Below, in pieces: positions 44,058 to 53,238 of a stretch of DNA of 60,611 nt (position 1 is the first letter of the stretch; every line of letters starts with the position of its first letter). The position numbers were made by a program, and so were the translations under genes. The DNA comes from Deltaproteobacteria bacterium. GTDB taxonomy: Bacteria; Desulfobacterota; Binatia; Binatales; Binataceae. The stretch covers positions 1 through 60,611 of the forward strand of contig JAJZAI010000018.1 of assembly GCA_021799495.1 (NCBI GenBank), given 5' to 3'. The notes under the pieces were generated by a model. The model searched no databases and was not told where the DNA came from. It saw nothing but the letters and a program-made list of their open reading frames with translations.

Positions 44058-44435
44058 TCAGCCTTTCCTGGGTTCGGTGACTTCGCGGAACGCGCGAATC
44101 GCCTCGACCGCCGTAGGCACGCCGCTGTACTGGGAGATGTGGATGATCATCTCCTTGATCTCTTCTTTCGTCACGCCGATATTGAGCGCGCCGCGCATGT
44201 GCAGGCGCAATTCGGGACCGCGTCCCAGCGCCATCAGCGCGGTCATCGTGATCAGCGAGCGAATTTTGGTGGGCAGTCCGGGGCGGCCCCAGATGCCGCC
44301 GAAGAGCTGATCGTTGAGAAACGTCGCAAAGCCCTCGTCGAACTGCTTCAGATATTCGTTGCCGGCCACGGCGGCCTTCTCACCGAACAGCGCGGTGCGA
44401 ACTTCAAGACCTTTTTTCGCCAGATCGTCAGCCAT
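44058..44435 (-). CDS. Carboxymuconolactone decarboxylase family protein, copy 1
   Basis: A 125-residue CMD-domain protein (RSLITMTALMALGRGPELRL, HMRGALNIGVTKEEIKEMII). Family members include 4-carboxymuconolactone decarboxylase PcaC and AhpD-like proteins. The Cys-x-x-Cys of AhpD is absent, which favours a PcaC-like role. A very similar second copy lies at 45568, on the other side of the dehydrogenase gene. Confidence 0.9.
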   Translation of the reverse strand: MADDLAKKGLEVRTALFGEKAAVAGNEYLKQFDEGFATFLNDQLFGGIWGRPGLPTKIRSLITMTALMALGRGPELRLHMRGALNIGVTKEEIKEMIIHISQYSGVPTAVEAIRAFREVTEPRKG

Positions 44436-45567: not shown

Positions 45568-45939
45568 TCAATCCGGACTCGTGACTTCGCGCAGGGCGCG
45601 AATCGCCTCGACCGCCGTCGGCACTCCGCTGTACTGCGAGAGATGGATGATCATCTCCTTGATCTCCTCGGGCGTGATTCCCAGATTGAGCGCGCCGCGC
45701 ATGTGCGTGCGCAATTCCGGCCCGCGCGCGAGCGCCATCAGCGTCGCCATCGTGATGAACGAGCGGATTTTGATCGGCAATCCGGGCCGCGTCCAGATTT
45801 GCGCGAACAACTGCTCGTTCACGAAATCGGCAAAGAATTTGTCGAATTTGCTGAAGTCCTCGTGGCGCTGGCGAGCCGCCTGCTCGCCCCAAAGCTGCGC
45901 GCGCAGTTTGATGCCTTTTTCGTGCAGATCGTCGGCCAT
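45568..45939 (-). CDS. Carboxymuconolactone decarboxylase family protein, copy 2
   Basis: A 123-residue paralogue of the protein at 44058: RSFITMATLMALARGPELRT, HMRGALNLGITPEEIKEMII and the shared SQYSGVPTAVEAIRA. The ACGGAGG ribosome site supports the ATG at 45939. It is the first gene of the minus-strand catabolic cluster. Confidence 0.9.
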   Translation of the reverse strand: MADDLHEKGIKLRAQLWGEQAARQRHEDFSKFDKFFADFVNEQLFAQIWTRPGLPIKIRSFITMATLMALARGPELRTHMRGALNLGITPEEIKEMIIHLSQYSGVPTAVEAIRALREVTSPD

Positions 45940-46120
45940 GATTGCAACCTCCGTAAAAACCGCGGAACGCCGTTGGCGCACGCCGCCCGTGTCGTTGAAT
46001 GTCGTGGTCGTTCACGTCTCCTTAAGCATCGGCCCGGATTAACTGCAAGAGCACCGCGGCGAACGGGAAATTCGCGCGCGCAGGGCGTATGGCGAACGCC
46101 CTGACCGGCTGGTCGGGCGG
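45940..46120. other. Divergent intergenic region
   Basis: The 445 bases between the CMD gene and the E1-like gene are filled from 46121 on by a promoter, riboswitch and terminator, listed separately. In 45940-46120 no gene or strong structure was seen; it should contain the minus-strand promoter of the catabolic cluster. Confidence 0.5.
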
Positions 46121-46167: not shown

Positions 46168-46284
46168 GCCTTATCCAGAGCGGCGGAGGGACTGGCCCGA
46201 CGATGCCGCAGCAACCGGCCCTTTGGGGTGCTGGTGCTAAGTCCTGCGGGATCCCCCCAGCGATGGGATCCTGGAAGATAAGGC
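46168..46284 (+). promoter_or_regulatory. SAM-I (S-box) riboswitch aptamer
   Basis: The conserved S-box core is present in order: GGCGGAGGGACTGGCCC, the P2 strand CCGCAGCAACC, GGTGCTGGTGCTAAGTCC with the conserved GCUAA-UCC, and a closing P1 helix GCCTTATC (46168-46175) with GATAAGGC (46277-46284). SAM binding stabilises P1. It controls a sulfur/methionine-type operon, as S-boxes usually do. Confidence 0.95.
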
Positions 46285-46297
46285 GAGAGTAAAGTTA

Positions 46298-46328
46298 CCC
46301 TCGTCTTATCGCCCGACGAGGGTTTTTT
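46298..46328 (+). terminator. Riboswitch-controlled intrinsic terminator
   Basis: CCCTCGTC and GACGAGGG pair around the loop TTATCGCCC and are followed by TTTTTT. The alternative antiterminator is visible: the P1 3-prime strand GATAAGGCGAG (46277-46287) can pair with CTCGTCTTATC (46300-46310) with one G-U pair. High SAM should therefore switch the operon off. Confidence 0.92.
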
Positions 46329-46384
46329 GTTGCAACCTTTCCCGGCGGGACGCGACGCAGGCCGCAATCTGAGGAGTGCGCAGC

Positions 46385-47116
46385 GTGGCGTCGTTCGGCA
46401 AGATCGAAATAAAGCGCAAGCCGCCGATCCTGATCGTCGGCGCGGGCGGCCTCGGCGCGCCCGCCGCGCTGGCGCTTGCGCGCGCGAATTGCGGACCGCT
46501 GTTGCTGGTCGATCCCGATCCGGTCGAACTTTCCAATCTGCCCAGGCAAATAATTTACGGCGAAGCCGATATCGGCTCGGCGAAAGCGGTTGCGGCGGCG
46601 CGTCGGCTCGCGATGCTTGCGCATAATCTCCCGGTCGCAACGGCGGCGGTTCGGCTCGACGAACGCAACGCCTCAGGATTTATCTCCCGCGCCGATTTCG
46701 TGATCGACGCGACCGACGATCCGGCGGCGAAATTTCTGATCAACGATGTATGCGTCGAACTTGGCCGGCCATTCGTTTATGGCGGCGTGCTCGGTTTGAG
46801 CGGGCAGGCGATGACCGTGATGCCGGGCGAGACGGCATGCCTAAGATGTCTCTTCGAGACGCCTCCGGACATTGAGGAAACCGCGACTTGCCGCGACGCG
46901 GGCATAATCGGACCGGTCGCGGGTGCGATCGGGACGTTGCAGGCGTCAGAGGCGATCCGCGCCGTGGCCGGAATCAGACCGGCGCTCGCCGGCAAAATTC
47001 TCACGTTGGACGGTTCGCGCGCCGGGCGTGTCCGGATCGCGCCGATCGCGGCGCGGCCCGGATGCGCTTGCGGCGCCGCGCGAGCGCAGCTTTCAGCCGC
47101 GAATGCGGCTCACTAG
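46385..47116 (+). CDS. ThiF/MoeB-type E1-like adenylyltransferase lacking the N-terminal segment
   Basis: A 243-residue protein that should adenylate the C-terminus of a ubiquitin-like sulfur carrier. The nucleotide loop ILIVGAGGLGAPAAL, DPDPVELSNLPRQ, DATDDPAAKF and the Cys segment TATCRDAGIIGPVAG are intact, with Zn Cys pairs CLRC and CACG. It begins only about 10 residues before the first strand, so the usual RYSRQ-containing N-terminal helix is missing. The GTG at 46385 has GAGGAG eight bases upstream; a GTG at 46376 overlaps that site. First gene after the riboswitch. Confidence 0.9.
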   Translation: MASFGKIEIKRKPPILIVGAGGLGAPAALALARANCGPLLLVDPDPVELSNLPRQIIYGEADIGSAKAVAAARRLAMLAHNLPVATAAVRLDERNASGFISRADFVIDATDDPAAKFLINDVCVELGRPFVYGGVLGLSGQAMTVMPGETACLRCLFETPPDIEETATCRDAGIIGPVAGAIGTLQASEAIRAVAGIRPALAGKILTLDGSRAGRVRIAPIAARPGCACGAARAQLSAANAAH

Positions 47117-47127
47117 GCGAGGAAGCG

Positions 47128-48390
47128 ATGAGCTACGTCACCAGTCTCAAGTGCCGCGAGTGCGGCCAGGACTATCCAATCAGTCCGCTCCACGTATGCG
47201 AGACCTGCTTCGGTCCCCTCGAAGTGCAGTACGACTACGCCAAAATCCGCGCCGCCGTTTCGCGCCAGGCGATCGAGCGCCGGCCGCATAATTTGTGGCG
47301 CTACCGCGAGTTGCTGCCGGTCGAGGGCGAGCCGGAAATCGGACCCTGCTCGGGCTTTACGCCGCTGGTGCGATGCGAGCGGCTGGGCGCCGAACTGGGA
47401 ATCAAGAAGCTCTACGTCAAGGACGACACCGTCAACCATCCGACGCTTTCCTACAAGGATCGCGTCGTCTCGGTGGCGATCAGCAAAGCGCGCGAATTCG
47501 GCTTTACCACCGTGTCGTGCGCATCGACCGGCAACCTGGCGACGGCGGTGGCGGCGCACGCGGCGCGCGCGGGACTCAATTGCGTGATTTTCATGCCCGA
47601 GAGCGTCGAAACCGGCAAAATCGTCGGCTCGACGATCTATGGCGCGCGCGTGATTACGATCCGCGGCAACTACGACGACGTGAACCGGCTGTGCAGCGAA
47701 ATCGCCGATAAATACGGATGGGCGTTCGTCAATATCAATCTGCGGCCATACTACACCGAGGGCGCGAAAACTTTCGGCTTCGAGGTCGCCGAGCAGCTGG
47801 GATGGCGGTTGCCGGACCATATCGTGATGCCGACCGCCGGCGGCACGATTCTGCCGAAGGTCGCCAAAGGCTTCAAGGAATTCCGCGAAGTCGGGCTGAT
47901 CCGCGACGGCGAATTCAAGATTCACTGCGCGCAGGCCGCCGGTTCCGCGCCGGTGGTGCATGCCCTGCACAAGGGCACGGACCTGATCACGCCGGTCAAG
48001 CCGGATACGATCGCGAAGTCGATTGCGATCGGAAACCCCGCCGACGGCTTCTACGTGCTGCGCGCGGTGCGCGAGTCCGGCGGATGGGGCGACGTGGCGA
48101 CCGATCCGGAAATCATCGACGCGATCAAATTGCTCGCTTCGACGGAGGGCATTTTCGCCGAGCCCGCCGGCGGCACCACGCTGGCCGTGGCGATCAAGCT
48201 GATTCAGCAAAAGCGCATCAAGCCCGACGAAACCGTGGTCGTCGCGATTACCGGCAACGGCTACAAAACCGTCGAAGCGGTGGCGCAAGCGATCGAGCAG
48301 CCCTGCGTTATCGAGGCGCGGCTCAAGGAGTTCGACGCCCTTTACGAACGGCTCGGCGGCAGCCGGCGTCCGCTCGCGGGCGCGGCCTGA
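47128..48390 (+). CDS. thrC: Threonine synthase (or threonine-synthase-like PLP enzyme)
   Basis: A 420-residue fold-type II PLP enzyme. An N-terminal zinc ribbon (CRECGQDYPISPLHVCETC) is followed by the PLP Lys in HPTLSYKDRVVS, the Ser/Thr-Gly-Asn loop CASTGNLATAVAA and the glycine loop PTAGGTILPK. By family it converts O-phosphohomoserine to threonine. It lies 11 bases after the E1 gene, under a SAM riboswitch and beside a sulfur carrier and CysM, an unusual setting for threonine synthesis. GAGGAAG precedes the ATG. Confidence 0.9.
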   Translation: MSYVTSLKCRECGQDYPISPLHVCETCFGPLEVQYDYAKIRAAVSRQAIERRPHNLWRYRELLPVEGEPEIGPCSGFTPLVRCERLGAELGIKKLYVKDDTVNHPTLSYKDRVVSVAISKAREFGFTTVSCASTGNLATAVAAHAARAGLNCVIFMPESVETGKIVGSTIYGARVITIRGNYDDVNRLCSEIADKYGWAFVNINLRPYYTEGAKTFGFEVAEQLGWRLPDHIVMPTAGGTILPKVAKGFKEFREVGLIRDGEFKIHCAQAAGSAPVVHALHKGTDLITPVKPDTIAKSIAIGNPADGFYVLRAVRESGGWGDVATDPEIIDAIKLLASTEGIFAEPAGGTTLAVAIKLIQQKRIKPDETVVVAITGNGYKTVEAVAQAIEQPCVIEARLKEFDALYERLGGSRRPLAGAA

Positions 48391-48469
48391 GGCTTGCGGG
48401 ACGGCCTTGCGCCGCATAACGATTAAGGACTGGCATCGAGAGTTTTCCAGGGAGGTCGCATCTGACGCC

Positions 48470-48748
48470 ATGCCGATAAAGGTTCGAGTTCCAACCCCAT
48501 TGCGCCGCTTCACCGGAGGAGTCGACGAAGTCGTCGCCGACGGCGATTCGATTAAGAACGTGATCGAAGACCTCGAGCGCCGCCATCCGGGAATCCGCGA
48601 GCGCTTGCTCGACGACAGCGGCGAGCTGCGCCGTTTCGTCAACGTCTATCTGAACGGCGACGATATCCGGTTCCTCAACCAGCTCAACTCGAAGGTCAAG
48701 GATGGCGACGATATCTCAATCGTCCCTGCGATCGCGGGCGGAAGGTAG
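48470..48748 (+). CDS. MoaD/ThiS/CysO-like sulfur carrier protein
   Basis: A 92-residue beta-grasp protein (KVRVPTPLRRFTGGVDEVVA, RFVNVYLNGDDIRFLNQL, VKDGDDISIVPAIAGGR). Members are charged as C-terminal thiocarboxylates by an E1-like enzyme and give sulfur to CysM or similar synthases. Here the diglycine is followed by one Arg, so the last residue must be removed before activation; no JAMM-type protease gene is in the window. GGAGG lies 14 bases before the ATG. It overlaps cysM by 47 bases. Confidence 0.9.
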   Translation: MPIKVRVPTPLRRFTGGVDEVVADGDSIKNVIEDLERRHPGIRERLLDDSGELRRFVNVYLNGDDIRFLNQLNSKVKDGDDISIVPAIAGGR

Positions 48749-49748
48749 CGCGGAAACCGTTCCGGCGCCGCGCGCCCAGAGCGTGCTCGAGCTGATCGGC
48801 AATACGCCGCTGCTCGAAATCACACGCTTGACCGACGGCCTGCTGCGTCCCGGCGTGCGGATTTTCGCCAAGCTCGAAGGATTCAATCCGGGCGGCTCGG
48901 TCAAAGACCGTCCCGCCCGCAAGATGATCGAGCTGGGCCTCGCCCGCGGCGAGCTGCGCCCCGGCAAGGTGATTCTCGATTCGACTTCCGGCAATACCGG
49001 AATCGCGCTGGCGATGGTCGGCGCGGCGCTCGGTTATCCGGTCGAGCTGGTGATGGCGTCCAACGTCAGCCGCGAACGCAAGAAAATTATCGAGGCGTTC
49101 GGCGCCAAACCGATCTATTCCGATCCGCTCGAAGGCTCCGACGGCGCGATCCGCCTCTGCCGCAAGCTGATCGAATCCGACCCCGGCCGCTACTTCAAAC
49201 CCGACCAGTACAACAATGAAGCGAATCCGCTCGCCCATTTCGAGACCACCGGCCCCGAAGTCTGGCGTCAGACCGGCGGCGCGGTGACGCATTTCGTCGC
49301 CGGAATCGGCACCAGCGGAACGGTGATGGGCACCGGCAGGTTCCTCAAGTCGCGCAATCCGGACGTGCGGATAATCGCCGTCGAGCCCGACGATCCGATG
49401 CACGGCCTTGAAGGACTCAAACACATGGCGTCGTCGATCGTTCCCGGCATCTACCGCGAGCGCGAGCTCGACGGCAAAATCGCGGTCAGCACCGAAGACG
49501 CCTACGAGATGGTCTATGCGCTGGGCCAGTTCGAGGGTTTGCTGGTCGGCCAGTCGTCAGGGGCCGCGATGGTCGCGGCGTTGAAGGTGGCGCGCGCGCT
49601 GCGCGAGGGCGTCGTCGTGACCGTCTTCTCCGACTTCGGCGACAAATATCTTTCCACCAACCTCTGGATCGGATGGCAGGAGTGGCGCCGCGAGCATCTG
49701 CAGCGCCTGATTCGCAAATGGAACGTATCCGCGAACGTTACTACCTGA
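48702..49748 (+). CDS. cysM: Cysteine synthase, CysM type
   Basis: A 348-residue PLP cysteine synthase. The PLP Lys is in NPGGSVKDRPA, with STSGNTGIALA, the phosphate loop GIGTSGTVMGTG and the C-terminal marker GDKYLSTNLW typical of CysM. With the adjacent carrier it probably uses protein thiocarboxylate as sulfur donor, as mycobacterial CysM does with CysO. The start at 48702 lies inside the carrier gene; a slightly later start is possible. It overlaps the NIL gene by 31 bases. Confidence 0.94.
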   Translation: MATISQSSLRSRAEGSAETVPAPRAQSVLELIGNTPLLEITRLTDGLLRPGVRIFAKLEGFNPGGSVKDRPARKMIELGLARGELRPGKVILDSTSGNTGIALAMVGAALGYPVELVMASNVSRERKKIIEAFGAKPIYSDPLEGSDGAIRLCRKLIESDPGRYFKPDQYNNEANPLAHFETTGPEVWRQTGGAVTHFVAGIGTSGTVMGTGRFLKSRNPDVRIIAVEPDDPMHGLEGLKHMASSIVPGIYRERELDGKIAVSTEDAYEMVYALGQFEGLLVGQSSGAAMVAALKVARALREGVVVTVFSDFGDKYLSTNLWIGWQEWRREHLQRLIRKWNVSANVTT

Positions 49749-49963
49749 GCTATCCGCGCGCCTTGATCCGCGAGCCGATCCTCTATCATCTGGTCAAGAA
49801 GTTCGACCTGATGTTCAATATCCGCGGCGCGAGCGTCTCGGAAGAGATGGGCCTTGTCGCGGTCGAATTCGAGGGTTCCGCGGATCAGCTCGAACGCGCG
49901 CTCGCATGGCTCCGCATCAGCGGCGTCACCGTCGAGCCGATCGAAAAAAACGTTATCGAGTAA
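49718..49963 (+). CDS. NIL-domain protein
   Basis: An 81-residue ferredoxin-like alpha/beta protein (YYLSYPRALIREPILYHLVK, FNIRGASVSEEMGLVAVEFE). NIL domains occur at the C-terminus of the methionine importer ATPase and as free proteins in cysteine/homocysteine gene clusters. A role in sensing or sulfur transfer is possible. The ATG at 49718 overlaps cysM. Confidence 0.87.
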   Translation: MERIRERYYLSYPRALIREPILYHLVKKFDLMFNIRGASVSEEMGLVAVEFEGSADQLERALAWLRISGVTVEPIEKNVIE

Positions 49964-50006
49964 TCGCCCGGCAAGGCGCGCGAAGCGCCGGGCGGCCGTA
50001 TCAACG

Positions 50007-50687
50007 ATGACTCTCAGCGATCGCCAGATCGAGCGTTACAGCCGGCAGATTATCGTTCCCGGTTTCAGCGGCGCCGCGCAGGAACGCCTGCTCGCGTCGC
50101 GCCTCGCGATACTCGCCGATGCGAACGAGGCCGAGCCGGCGCTCGTATATTTCGCCGGCGCCGGAATCGGCCATATCACGCTGGCCGGGCCCGGCGGGCG
50201 CGCCGCCGCCGAAGAGCGCGCCGCCCGGATCCGGGATTTGAATTCCGACGCCGTGCTGGCGCATGCCGCGAGCGTTCCCGATGAAATCGATTTGCTGTTC
50301 GCGCTGATTGGCGGTCCGGAATCGCGCTCGGCGCTCGACGCCGTCGCGGGCCGTCCGCGATCCGGCGCGATGATCGTAGTTCGGATCGACGCGCCCGCGC
50401 GTATCGCGATTATTCCGGATGGAGCGGGATGTCCGCGATGCGCCGGCGGGGCGCTGCTCGATCCGCCGCGGGCGCGCGCGGAACATGCGGAGTTTGTCGC
50501 GATGGTCGCGGCGGTCGAAGCGCTCAAGCTGCTGGCGGGACTCGCGGAGGCGAACGCGGCCGCGCTGATCGAATTCGACGGCCTTGCCGCGTCGGCCCGT
50601 CCGCTGCCGGTTCACGATCTGATCGCCGCCGCGAGTCCCGCCTGCGGATGCCGCCGTGCGGGAGAGCACGCTTCCGCTTCCCGATGA
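50007..50687 (+). CDS. Second E1-like (MoeB/ThiF) protein without nucleotide-binding loop
   Basis: A 226-residue protein with the full MoeB N-terminus LSDRQIERYSRQIIVPGFSG. Where active E1 proteins have VxGxGGLG, it reads LAILADANEAEP, and the DxDxxxxSNLxRQ block is replaced. The catalytic Cys segment is gone. Zn Cys pairs remain (CPRC and CGCR), as does the helix AAVEALKLLAG. It is therefore a pseudo-E1. The N-terminal Arg is the residue that in MoeB reaches into the partner's ATP site. It overlaps the HAD gene start by ATGA. Confidence 0.82.
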   Translation: MTLSDRQIERYSRQIIVPGFSGAAQERLLASRLAILADANEAEPALVYFAGAGIGHITLAGPGGRAAAEERAARIRDLNSDAVLAHAASVPDEIDLLFALIGGPESRSALDAVAGRPRSGAMIVVRIDAPARIAIIPDGAGCPRCAGGALLDPPRARAEHAEFVAMVAAVEALKLLAGLAEANAAALIEFDGLAASARPLPVHDLIAAASPACGCRRAGEHASASR

Positions 50688-51430
50688 TTGCGCCATTGTC
50701 CCGCTTTCGCGTCTGGCTGTTCGATTTCGACAATACCCTTGCGGCGCTCGAGCGCGAGGTCGATTGGCCGGGCGGCCGGCGCAAACTCGAAGCGTTTTTG
50801 CGCGCCGAGTTTGCCGCGCACGGCCTCGACGACGCCATCTTCAGCGAAATTCCGCGCGGCAATCTTCCGCTATACGCGGCTTTGCACACGCGATGGCTGC
50901 GCGGTGGGGCGAATTCAGGCGTGACCGGCGCGGTCGCGCTGCTGGCCTCCGCGTCGGCGCTAATCGAAGCAGCCGAGCTGGCCGGCGTCGATTGCGCGGT
51001 TCCCCTCCAGGGCGCGGTCGAATTGCTGTGGAGCCTGGCCGGCGGCGGCCGCACGATTGCGATCGTCACTTCCAATTCCTCGCGCACGGTCGCGCGCTGG
51101 CTGGAACGCTATCGGCTGGCCGGGGTGGTTCCGACGATTGTAGGCCGCGATTCGGCGCTGGCGCTGAAACCGTCGCCGGAAACGATTTATCGTGCGCTCG
51201 AATTGTGCGGCGCGCCGTCCGAAGACGCGATTTTCGTGGGCGATAGCGAGGCCGATTACCGCGCCGCCAGCGCCGCGCAGGTGCGCTTCCTCGCGATAAA
51301 CCCCGACCATTCCGGCGACGCATGGTTGGCGGCGCTCAAGTCAGCGGACATTTTTGCCTCGCCCGGAGCTATCGCCGCCAGGCTCGATGCGGATTCGGCG
51401 TCCGGGCCACGCCTTCCGGATAATCGATGA
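50684..51430 (+). CDS. HAD-family hydrolase
   Basis: A 248-residue HAD phosphatase: motif I WLFDFDNTLAALE, motif II VTSNSSRTVAR, a Lys in ALKPSPETI and motif III FVGDSEADYRAA, with a helical cap between, as in phosphoglycolate phosphatase-like enzymes. Its ATG lies in an ATGA overlap with the pseudo-E1 gene, so it belongs to the sulfur operon. The substrate is unknown; a phosphorylated amino-acid precursor would fit the setting. Confidence 0.85.
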   Translation: MIAPLSRFRVWLFDFDNTLAALEREVDWPGGRRKLEAFLRAEFAAHGLDDAIFSEIPRGNLPLYAALHTRWLRGGANSGVTGAVALLASASALIEAAELAGVDCAVPLQGAVELLWSLAGGGRTIAIVTSNSSRTVARWLERYRLAGVVPTIVGRDSALALKPSPETIYRALELCGAPSEDAIFVGDSEADYRAASAAQVRFLAINPDHSGDAWLAALKSADIFASPGAIAARLDADSASGPRLPDNR

Positions 51431-51520: not shown

Positions 51521-52063
51521 ATGAGCGAAGGTTTCACCCTGTGGTTCACCGGATTGTCCGGCGCCGGCAAATCGACGCTGGCCAATCTGGCGGCTGAAGA
51601 GCTGCGCCGCCGCGGCCATCGCGTCGAAATTCTCGACGGCGACGAGGTTCGCACCAATCTTTCCAAAGGCCTTGGATTTTCCAAGGAAGACCGTGACACC
51701 AATATCCGGCGAATCGGATGGGTCTGCCGGCTGCTGGCGCGCAACGGCGTGATCGCGATTTCGGCGGCGATTTCGCCCTATCGCGACATCCGCGACGAAG
51801 TGCGCAAGATGCACGAGCGCTTCTTTGAAGTTTTCGTGAAATGCCCGATTCCGGTACTCGCCGAACGCGACGTCAAGGGTCTCTACAAAAAAGCGCTGGC
51901 CGGCGAAATCAAGAATTTCACCGGCGTCTCGGACCCATACGAAGAGCCGCTCATCCCGGAGCTGGTGGTGGAAACCGACCGCGAATCGCACGAGGAGAGC
52001 CTCGGCAAGCTGTTGAGCGCGCTCGAAGCGCGGCGGCTTATCCGCAACGGAGGCGCGCGATGA
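51521..52063 (+). CDS. cysC: Adenylylsulfate (APS) kinase
   Basis: A 180-residue APS kinase with Walker [10 protein letters not shown] (11-19), [20 protein letters not shown] and the phosphate-contact loop ISAAISPYR. It phosphorylates APS to PAPS. It is not fused to ATP sulfurylase; sat begins in the ATGA overlap with its stop. No PAPS or APS reductase is in the window. Confidence 0.97.
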
Positions 52064-53238
52064 GTTCGGAACATCGGGACGCAATCACGCCGCATGGCGG
52101 CGCGGAATTGGTGGATCGCGCGGTTCCCGCGCCGGAACGCGCCGCCGCCCGCGCGCACGCCGCCAAACTGTCCGTCATCGCGCTCGGCGCGCGCGAGCTT
52201 GCCGACCTCGAAATGCTGTCCACCGGCGCTTTTTCGCCACTTACCGGCTTCATGGGCGAGGCGGATTATCTGCGCAGCCGCGACGACCTGCGCCTTGCGA
52301 ACGGGGTTCCGTGGTCGATTCCGATTACGCTCGGCGTGGACGACGCCGGGGCGCGCGAACTCAAACCGGGGCAGGAGATAGCGCTTGCGACCGACGGCGG
52401 ATCGCGAATTGCCACCTTGAAAATCAGCGAAATTTTTCGCGTCGATCGCAAGCGCGAGGCCGAGGCCGTCTTCGGCACGGCCGACGATGCGCATCCGGGG
52501 GCAAAAAACGTCACGTCGACGCCCCCATGGTGCGTCGCCGGGCCGGTTGCGCTGTTCGAGGACGTGCCGGGCCGCACCTTCCTGGAGTATCCGCGCGAGC
52601 CGCGGCAAACGCGCGCGGCGTTTCGCGAGCTGGGATGGCGCCGGATCGTCGCCTTCCAGACCCGCAATCCCACCCATCGCGCGCACGAGTATATCCAGAA
52701 GGCGGCGCTCGAAATCTGCGACGGCCTGCTGGTCCATCCGCTCGTCGGCGAGACCAAGGGCGACGACGTTCCCGCCGCGATCCGGATGGAAACCTACAAG
52801 GTGCTGCTCGATAAATACTATCCGAAGGGCCGTGCGATGCTGGCAGTGATGCCGGCGCATATGCGCTACGGCGGGCCGCGCGAAGCGATTTTGCACGCGA
52901 TTATCCGGCGCAATTACGGATGCACCCACTTCATCGTCGGGCGCGACCACGCCGGCGTCGGCAATTATTACGGCACTTATGACGCGCAAAAGATTTTCGA
53001 CCGCTATGCGCATCAGGAGATCGGCATCACCACGCTGAATTTCGAAAACACTTTCTATTGCGGCAAGTGCGGCGGGATGGCCTCCTACAAGACCTGCCCG
53101 CATGCGGACGCCGACCGCCTGCTGCTCTCCGGCACCAAGGTGCGCGAGATGCTGCGGGCGGGCCAGGCGCCGCCGCTGGAGTACACGCGCCCCGAGATCG
53201 CGGAGATTCTGGTCCGCGCGATGCGCGCGTCGTCGTAG
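52060..53238 (+). CDS. sat: Sulfate adenylyltransferase (ATP sulfurylase)
   Basis: A 392-residue homo-oligomeric ATP sulfurylase. Active-site motif [19 protein letters not shown], then [18 protein letters not shown] and a C-terminal zinc-type motif [10 protein letters not shown], as in dissimilatory and archaeal-type Sat. It makes APS from sulfate and ATP. The start ATG overlaps the cysC stop. A terminator follows 24 bases after its stop. Confidence 0.97.

Follow-up and report, generated by a model that had tools for sequence, protein, structure and literature searches.

A bacterial E1-like enzyme that seems to have become two complementary proteins in a sulfur-assimilation operon

The window examined here is a stretch of 60,611 nucleotides from a genome of a Deltaproteobacteria bacterium (contig JAJZAI010000018.1), and it contains, in the same orientation, a series of genes for sulfur assimilation that opens with a riboswitch and includes two proteins related to the ThiF/MoeB family of E1-like adenylyltransferases (Table 1). 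The first of these proteins, which we call E1cat, has an intact catalytic core but lacks the N-terminal RYSRQ segment, and the second, E1ps, keeps RYSRQ and has lost the glycine loop, the Arg and Lys of the ATP site, and the Cys. The SAM-I aptamer is also found upstream of the operon E1 in 9 of 13 related loci scanned, and the hairpin that follows it in the window, which has a 9-bp stem, a 9-nt loop and a T run, was recognized by eye; the pattern scan, which allows only loops of 3-8, did not list it. It is the probable expression platform of the riboswitch.

Table 1. Features of the sulfur-assimilation locus, in positions of the window, with the matches that support them.
Position	Strand	Feature	Support
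46168..46284	+	SAM-I riboswitch aptamer (RF00162), upstream of E1cat	cmscan 86.8 bits, gathering score 44.4
46297..46328	+	terminator-like hairpin plus T run	read by eye
46385..47116	+	E1cat, catalytic E1-like adenylyltransferase without the N-terminal RYSRQ segment; Gly loop at 46439-46456	Pfam ThiF 213 bits (cut-off 28.1), profile positions 22-236 of 238
47128..48390	+	threonine-synthase-like PLP enzyme	NF006050 327.1 bits (cut-off 303); TIGR00260 288.6 (cut-off 167.1)
48470..48748	+	MoaD/SAMP1-like sulfur carrier, ending AIAGGR (one residue after GG)	Pfam ThiS 59.9 bits; NF041918 65.8 (cut-off 60)
48702..49748	+	CysM-like cysteine synthase	PALP 233 bits; TIGR01138 372.9 bits, below its 394.2 cut-off
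49720..49963	+	small protein, tentatively NIL-like	no Pfam or NCBIfam match; relatives at the same place in many loci of the family
50007..50687	+	E1ps, pseudo-E1 with RYSRQ but no ATP site; finger Arg codon R13 at 50043-50045	Pfam ThiF 23.5 bits, below the 28.1 cut-off, profile positions 1-50, starting at the YSRQ of E1ps
50684..51430	+	HAD-family hydrolase, conserved neighbour	HAD_2 71.8 bits; synteny
51521..52063	+	adenylylsulfate kinase CysC	APS_kinase 209.6 bits
52060..53238	+	ATP sulfurylase (start chosen by eye within the frame 51841-53238)	ATP-sulfurylase 320.7 bits; PUA_2 170.2 bits

A first-pass annotation, made from the sequence alone, had proposed that these two proteins are the halves of a split heterodimeric E1, in which E1ps, as a pseudo-subunit, would donate the Arg that E1cat lacks, and the observation on which it rests is confirmed. 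The absence of the N-terminal segment in E1cat is not due to the choice of the start, firstly, because the GTG start of the gene is preceded only by another GTG at 46376, which is the first possible start after an in-frame TGA at 46370, and secondly, because the 98 E1cat sequences compared were read from stop to stop and show no segment of the RYSRQ type, although this column also formed part of the definition of the group. For its part, R13 of E1ps aligns with R14 of MoeB in the alignment with PDB sequences. Nor is the pair a matter of chance, as E1ps is found in 31 of 35 genomes of the window's family at E<=1e-6, and 13 families of the class carry both proteins. One refinement is needed, in that E1ps keeps more than its N-terminus: each of the four Zn cysteines is present in 67-76 of 98 rows, and an E1-like fold is predicted to be complete (pLDDT 89.7).

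The distribution of the two proteins was examined in 133 genomes of the class whose locus was retrieved. Of these, 89, belonging to 13 families, carry a truncated E1cat together with E1ps, 34 carry a full-length E1 and no E1ps, none carries a full-length operon E1 plus E1ps, and 10 are incomplete or misses. Profile searches of the whole genomes of those 34 found no separate E1ps, and the hits restricted to the N-terminus run off contig ends. The regions were retrieved only from genomes with a hit (16 of 145 had none at 1e-43, and one genome with a hit, G111, was not retrieved), and the truncated group is essentially one clade, with two state changes on the tree, in such a way that the 89 genomes are not independent replicates. 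Among the exceptions, G022, G024 and G029 show E1ps and no E1cat, but are cut by contig ends.

The losses in the two proteins are complementary. In the columns that were not used to define the groups, the Arg of NLxRQ is present in 98 of 98 E1cat rows and in 0 of 98 E1ps rows, the Lys in 98 and 3, the catalytic Asp in 98 and 16, the Cys of CxxAG in 98 and 1, and the full GxGxxG in 98 and 1, respectively, while in the 74 full-length rows all of these are present except the Cys, which is found in 72. In contrast, the finger Arg is present in 98 of 98 E1ps rows, even though the first Arg of RYSRQ drifts (87 of 98). The finger Arg column helped to define the E1ps and E1cat rows, but the only hits left out of the groups were four fragments with the catalytic domain.

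An alternative explanation is that E1ps is a decaying paralogue with no function, as its ATP site is degenerate, its length varies from about 100 to 300 residues, and it is under weak constraint, with a dN/dS of 0.41-0.59 over the whole gene (six pairs) against 0.15-0.18 for E1cat (three pairs), and of 1.22 for residues 1-60 in the closest pair, which has few changes. However, the open frame has been kept in 13 families, the R, Q and G columns are invariant, the whole-gene dN/dS is below 0.6 in all six pairs compared, and the predicted fold is confident, and we therefore consider this possibility very unlikely. It is also very unlikely that E1ps pairs not with E1cat but with the other E1 of the genome, a full-length protein of 403 residues (contig C62 of genome G000) with what appears by eye to be a rhodanese-like N-terminal part. 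This second copy has its own RYSRH segment, E1ps lies in the operon of E1cat, and of the 34 genomes of families f2, f12 and f17 searched, 26 also have a second E1 in a frame of 390-500 residues and show no E1ps.

A third alternative is that E1cat works as a homodimer without an Arg finger, and that E1ps is not an E1 subunit but an adaptor or regulator that binds the carrier or CysM. In its favor, E1ps usually sits next to CysM or the NIL-like gene rather than next to E1cat, and two results lean in this direction. Firstly, the genome G142 (91% complete) has E1cat and no E1ps detected in its genome, and the same occurs in L144/G148, although in the latter case a very small partner could have been missed: a search with a single sequence overlooked the known E1ps of the loci L149 and L163, and the profile that replaced it recovered those of L135, L163 and L189 clearly but that of L149, of ~100 residues, only at E 0.0015, and found none in the L144 genome. 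G147 and G085 also lack an E1ps, but their operons sit at contig ends. Secondly, the finger Arg (Arg14 of MoeB and Arg11 of ThiF) is reported to be non-essential in MoeB and ThiF, and absent from E. coli TcdA (PMC13139853). Nevertheless, in no examined genome does E1ps occur beside a full-length operon E1, the finger Arg is invariant, and in four genomes of genus g15 (G020, G031, G057 and G107) the two genes lie side by side with no carrier or CysM in the stretch retrieved, the best carrier in the genome being only 37-41% identical, although the G107 contig ends at E1cat. This alternative thus seems unlikely.

With regard to structure, a relative (L189) carries a natural in-frame read-through of E1cat, carrier and E1ps, and its AlphaFold2 model (pLDDT 83.4, pTM 0.75) superposes on both adenylation domains of UBA1, UBA6 and UBA7 at 3.2-3.9 A: eight rows of these proteins align over 328-340 residues and reach model residue 515-516, against 190-220 for one-domain E1s. 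These two-domain matches came from VIA-align 2, as Foldseek listed one-domain matches at the top, and one Uba1 row (4ii3_A) aligned over one domain only (216 residues). The arrangement should be taken as a prediction; AlphaFold2 knows E1 dimers and may dock any two E1-like domains in that way, the modelled pair is not that of the window, and the E1ps part of the chain rests on 6 of 34 rows, as a mixed alignment placed E1ps rows onto the E1cat part and only rows with the same gene order were kept for E1ps (one misaligned row, L135, and one redundant row, L189, were also dropped). The model of E1ps alone (pLDDT 89.7, pTM 0.88) matches ThiF (Z 19.6, rmsd 2.7, 204 aligned), SAE1 (18.7) and NAE1 (17.5), where that 1y8q_C and 1yov_A are the inactive chains is inferred from the B chains being named as catalytic.

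Taken together, the evidence supports the reading of the first-pass annotation, to which we give a probability of about 0.8: E1cat and E1ps would be the two subunits of an obligate heterodimeric E1-like enzyme that adenylates the MoaD/SAMP1-like carrier, in a sulfur-carrier operon controlled by a SAM riboswitch. E1cat would hold the only working active site, and E1ps would keep the dimer fold and place R13 into the E1cat site, as each subunit of a MoeB or ThiF homodimer does for the other. The complex and its geometry are only predicted, and the use of the Arg in catalysis, the adenylation of the carrier, and the delivery of thiocarboxylate to CysM or to the threonine-synthase-like enzyme for cysteine or homocysteine are inferred. 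The pair most likely arose when a homodimeric E1 gained a second copy at the far end of the operon, after which one copy lost the Arg segment and the other lost the ATP site. One genome, G041, holds two intact E1 genes at the two positions, and the downstream one scores highest against the E1ps profile of the full-length E1s searched (166.8 bits, against 148.9 at most for the others). The tree also places this copy nearest to E1ps, but as the E1ps branches are long and the rooting was at midpoint, this is only suggestive.

A bolder reading, which we regard as probable although less so than the heterodimer itself, is that bacteria evolved, on their own, a two-gene heterodimeric E1 by complementary decay of a homodimer, repeating the step that produced the inactive and active adenylation subunits of eukaryotic E1, and that in some lineages (L149, Nannocystis exedens MAG) the inactive partner has shrunk to about 100 residues, almost a free arginine-finger donor. 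How the eukaryotic enzymes moved from a symmetric homodimer to an inactive-active pair is inferred from distant ends, whereas here the same change appears within one bacterial class, in one orthologous operon, with the unsplit sister state (families f2 and f12) and a possible two-copy intermediate (G041) still present. This also gives a likely function to a set of proteins of which the window's member falls below the ThiF family threshold.

The first-pass annotation knew of no described bacterial example in a thiocarboxylate sulfur pathway, and we saw no bacterial two-gene E1 in the open-access literature searched, which largely leaves out subscription papers and preprints; however, the claim of novelty needs qualifying, because the BilD of the bacterial Bil system already has an inactive plus an active adenylation domain (PMC11354881), although fused in one polypeptide with a Cys domain and acting on BilA in a ubiquitination-like operon, while here the two are separate genes. 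With respect to MoeB and ThiF of E. coli, E1cat aligns over its whole core (ThiF 1.2e-42, MoeB 6.5e-33), and E1ps aligns at the N-terminal Arg segment and in its predicted fold, but those enzymes are described as homodimers whose two subunits both bind ATP (PMC12355090), whereas here the Arg segment and the ATP site lie on different genes. SAE1/SAE2 and NAE1/UBA3 (APPBP1/UBA3) also have separate inactive and active adenylation subunits (PMC12355090), and E1ps matches SAE1 and NAE1 in fold, but the proteins described here are bacterial, belong to a sulfur-carrier operon, and have no Cys half-domains or ubiquitin-fold domain, their 243 and 226 residues being taken up by the adenylation fold. In the yeast heterodimer Tcd1-Tcd2 the inactive Tcd1 gives an Arg finger (Arg59) to the Tcd2 site, although it is eukaryotic, acts on tRNA t6A, and R59A did not significantly affect the product (PMC13139853). 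Finally, the thiocarboxylate cysteine pathway of the CysO-CysM-MoeZ type likewise brings together a carrier, a cysteine synthase and an E1 in one neighbourhood (PMC1779556; PMC3227635), but there is one E1, often with rhodanese, whereas here there are two E1-like proteins, with no rhodanese match on either, and the one JAB match of the genome is on another contig.

The window holds a gene row on a single strand, which consists, in order, of E1cat (the catalytic E1-like protein), a threonine-synthase-like enzyme, a MoaD/SAMP1-like carrier, a CysM-like cysteine synthase, a small protein that may be NIL-like, E1ps (the pseudo-E1), a HAD hydrolase, CysC and ATP sulfurylase, with a SAM riboswitch just upstream of E1cat. 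E1cat matches ThiF from profile position 22 onward, while E1ps matches only positions 1-50, below the family threshold. The E1ps residue R13 aligns with MoeB R14, which has been named as the MoeB arginine finger, with ThiF Arg11 as its counterpart (PMC13139853). Outside this row, on the minus strand, two similar carboxymuconolactone-decarboxylase-like genes flank a dehydrogenase-like gene, although only the second of the two was matched to a family.

Coordinates of the features in the window and in two related loci (L144 and L149)
Feature	Sequence	Position	Strand
Carboxymuconolactone-decarboxylase-like gene, first	window	44058-44435	minus
Carboxymuconolactone-decarboxylase-like gene, second	window	45568-45981	minus
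SAM riboswitch	window	46168-46284	
E1cat	window	46385-47116	
Threonine-synthase-like enzyme	window	47128-48390	
End of the carrier (GG plus tail)	window	48722-48748	
E1ps	window	50007-50687	
Truncated E1cat without detectable E1ps, in a locus with a JAB-like gene (by eye) after CysM	L144	7915-8637 and 9863-10372	
E1ps of about 100 residues	L149	8552-8980	

In the family to which the window belongs, E1ps is found in 31 of 35 genomes and a recognisable E1cat in 28. In the 3 genomes with E1ps only (G022, G024 and G029) the operon is cut by a contig end, and 4 genomes have neither protein (G009, G011, G027 and G034), although G011 has a 40% fragment of unclear kind. At the level of the class, regions from 133 genomes were classified by six-frame profile searches: 89 genomes, in 13 families, carry a truncated E1cat plus E1ps; 34 carry a full-length E1 without E1ps (24 of family f2, 8 of f12, 1 of f17, and G041 of f8); 5 carry a truncated E1cat without E1ps in the fetched region; 4 show only E1ps in the fetched region (the three mentioned above and G005, which has an E1cat fragment on another contig); and in 1 (G117) the E1 is cut at a contig start. 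Of the 5 without E1ps, G144 and G047 have it on another contig, G147 and G085 are at contig ends with none found, and G142 is a real miss in a genome that is 91% complete. Of 80 named loci around CysM relatives, 36 show no E1 in the fetched stretch, 38 show a full-length E1 without E1ps, 3 show a truncated E1cat with E1ps (L135, Nitrospinota; L149, a Nannocystis exedens MAG; and L189, Deltaproteobacteria), 2 show E1ps at contig edges (L120, which is genome G001 again, and L163), and 1 (L144) shows a truncated E1cat without E1ps, where a profile search of the whole genome also found none.

To extend this to whole genomes, a profile of 41 E1ps rows was run on 33 of the 34 genomes with a full-length E1 plus G117, and separately on G041. 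It found the operon E1 and, in 26 of the 34 genomes of the first of these searches, a second E1 in a 390-500-residue frame. The hits limited to the N-terminus (contigs C75 and C17 of G117, C309 of G125 and C17 of G129) run off contig ends, and the pieces in G131 together cover the E1 profile to its end; a partner hidden in such fragments cannot be excluded. The same search recovered E1ps in the positive controls G036, G040 and G042. Profile hits also suggest a second E1cat/E1ps pair in G150, the genome of locus L163 (contig C110), and one in G153, the genome of locus L147 (contig C111, at the contig edge).

The residues lost by the two proteins are complementary. In 98 E1cat and 98 E1ps rows, respectively, the ATP-site Arg is present in 98 and 0, the Lys in 98 and 3, the catalytic Asp in 98 and 16, the Cys of CxxAG in 98 and 1, and the full glycine loop in 98 and 1. 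The finger Arg is present in 0 and 98, though it should be noted that this column was also used to sort the rows. Within E1ps the first Arg of RYSRQ drifts (87 of 98) while the second does not, and only this Arg, one Gln and one Gly are invariant, whereas the Zn cysteines remain in 67-76 of 98. The shortest E1ps not cut by a contig end, that of L149, is about 100 residues long, with an uncertain start, carries RFVRQ and lies at the end of the carrier gene, but its profile match is weak (7e-5).

On a tree of the catalytic domain (172 rows, 230 columns, built with a quick method) all the truncated proteins fall in one clade, with the full-length proteins of f2 and f12 as sister group; two state changes suffice, one of them being the upstream copy of G041, which lies inside the truncated clade on a long branch. 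Co-occurrence is therefore one old event kept for a long time, and not many independent ones. G041 carries two full-length E1 genes, which flank the threonine-synthase-like, carrier and CysM genes at the positions of E1cat and E1ps. Its downstream copy is the intact E1 nearest to E1ps on the tree, albeit with weak support, and is also the one that best matches the E1ps profile among the full-length E1s searched (166.8 bits, against 110.8 for its upstream copy and at most 148.9 in the search of the other full-length genomes and G117). Among close relatives, dN/dS is 0.41-0.59 for E1ps and 0.15-0.18 for E1cat.

The gene neighbourhood offers evidence of another type. In G020, G031, G057 and G107, four genomes of the genus labelled g15, E1cat is directly followed by E1ps, with no carrier or CysM in the fetched stretch (although the G107 contig ends at E1cat), and in G020 the gap is 10 bases; the best carrier match in these genomes is 37-41% identical. 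The two E1 proteins stay together where the rest of the block is missing.

Regarding structure, E1ps alone is predicted to fold with confidence (pLDDT 89.7, pTM 0.88), and the model matches ThiF, MoeB, SAE1 and NAE1. In L189 the genes for E1cat, carrier and E1ps lie in one frame, and reading the three stops as Gly gave a chain of 521 residues, which was modelled at pLDDT 83.4 and pTM 0.75. VIA-align 2 matches one-domain E1s to this model over 190-220 residues, but eight UBA7, UBA1 and UBA6 rows over 328-340 residues, reaching model residue 515 or 516, with an rmsd of 3.2-3.9, while one Uba1 row (4ii3_A) covers one domain only. This is only a prediction, known dimers are in the training data, and only 6 of the 34 rows cover E1ps; with these reservations, both E1 halves of the model superpose at once on the paired adenylation domains, in a swapped order that the pseudo-twofold symmetry permits.

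As for function, in split loci the carrier ends in GG plus a tail of 1-5 variable residues in 68 of 90 frames, like a pro-ubiquitin, in GG itself in 15, and has no GG near the end in 7, so it often needs trimming; one JAB-family match exists elsewhere in the genome, on contig C44. The SAM riboswitch precedes the operon E1 in the window and in 9 of 13 related loci scanned, of both split and full-length kind, which points to methionine or cysteine control. The threonine-synthase-like enzyme that sits between E1cat and the carrier, under SAM control, might be an O-phosphohomoserine-dependent sulfur enzyme rather than a true threonine synthase. We infer a thiocarboxylate-based synthesis of cysteine or homocysteine under SAM control.

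In summary, the observation of the first-pass annotation, that of two E1-like proteins in one operon with complementary losses, is confirmed, and its interpretation as the halves of a split heterodimeric E1 is supported at the level of sequence and model, pending biochemistry. Operons combining carrier, E1, JAB and cysteine synthase are already known (Iyer 2006, PMC1779556), with no second E1 mentioned in the parts of that work consulted. MoeB and ThiF are described as homodimers, and SAE and NAE as two-gene inactive-active pairs (PMC12355090). Yeast Tcd1-Tcd2 is a heterodimer in which Arg59 comes from the inactive chain, although R59A had no significant effect (PMC13139853). In bacteria, BilD is an inactive-active pair, but fused (PMC11354881), whereas here E1cat and E1ps are encoded by two genes.
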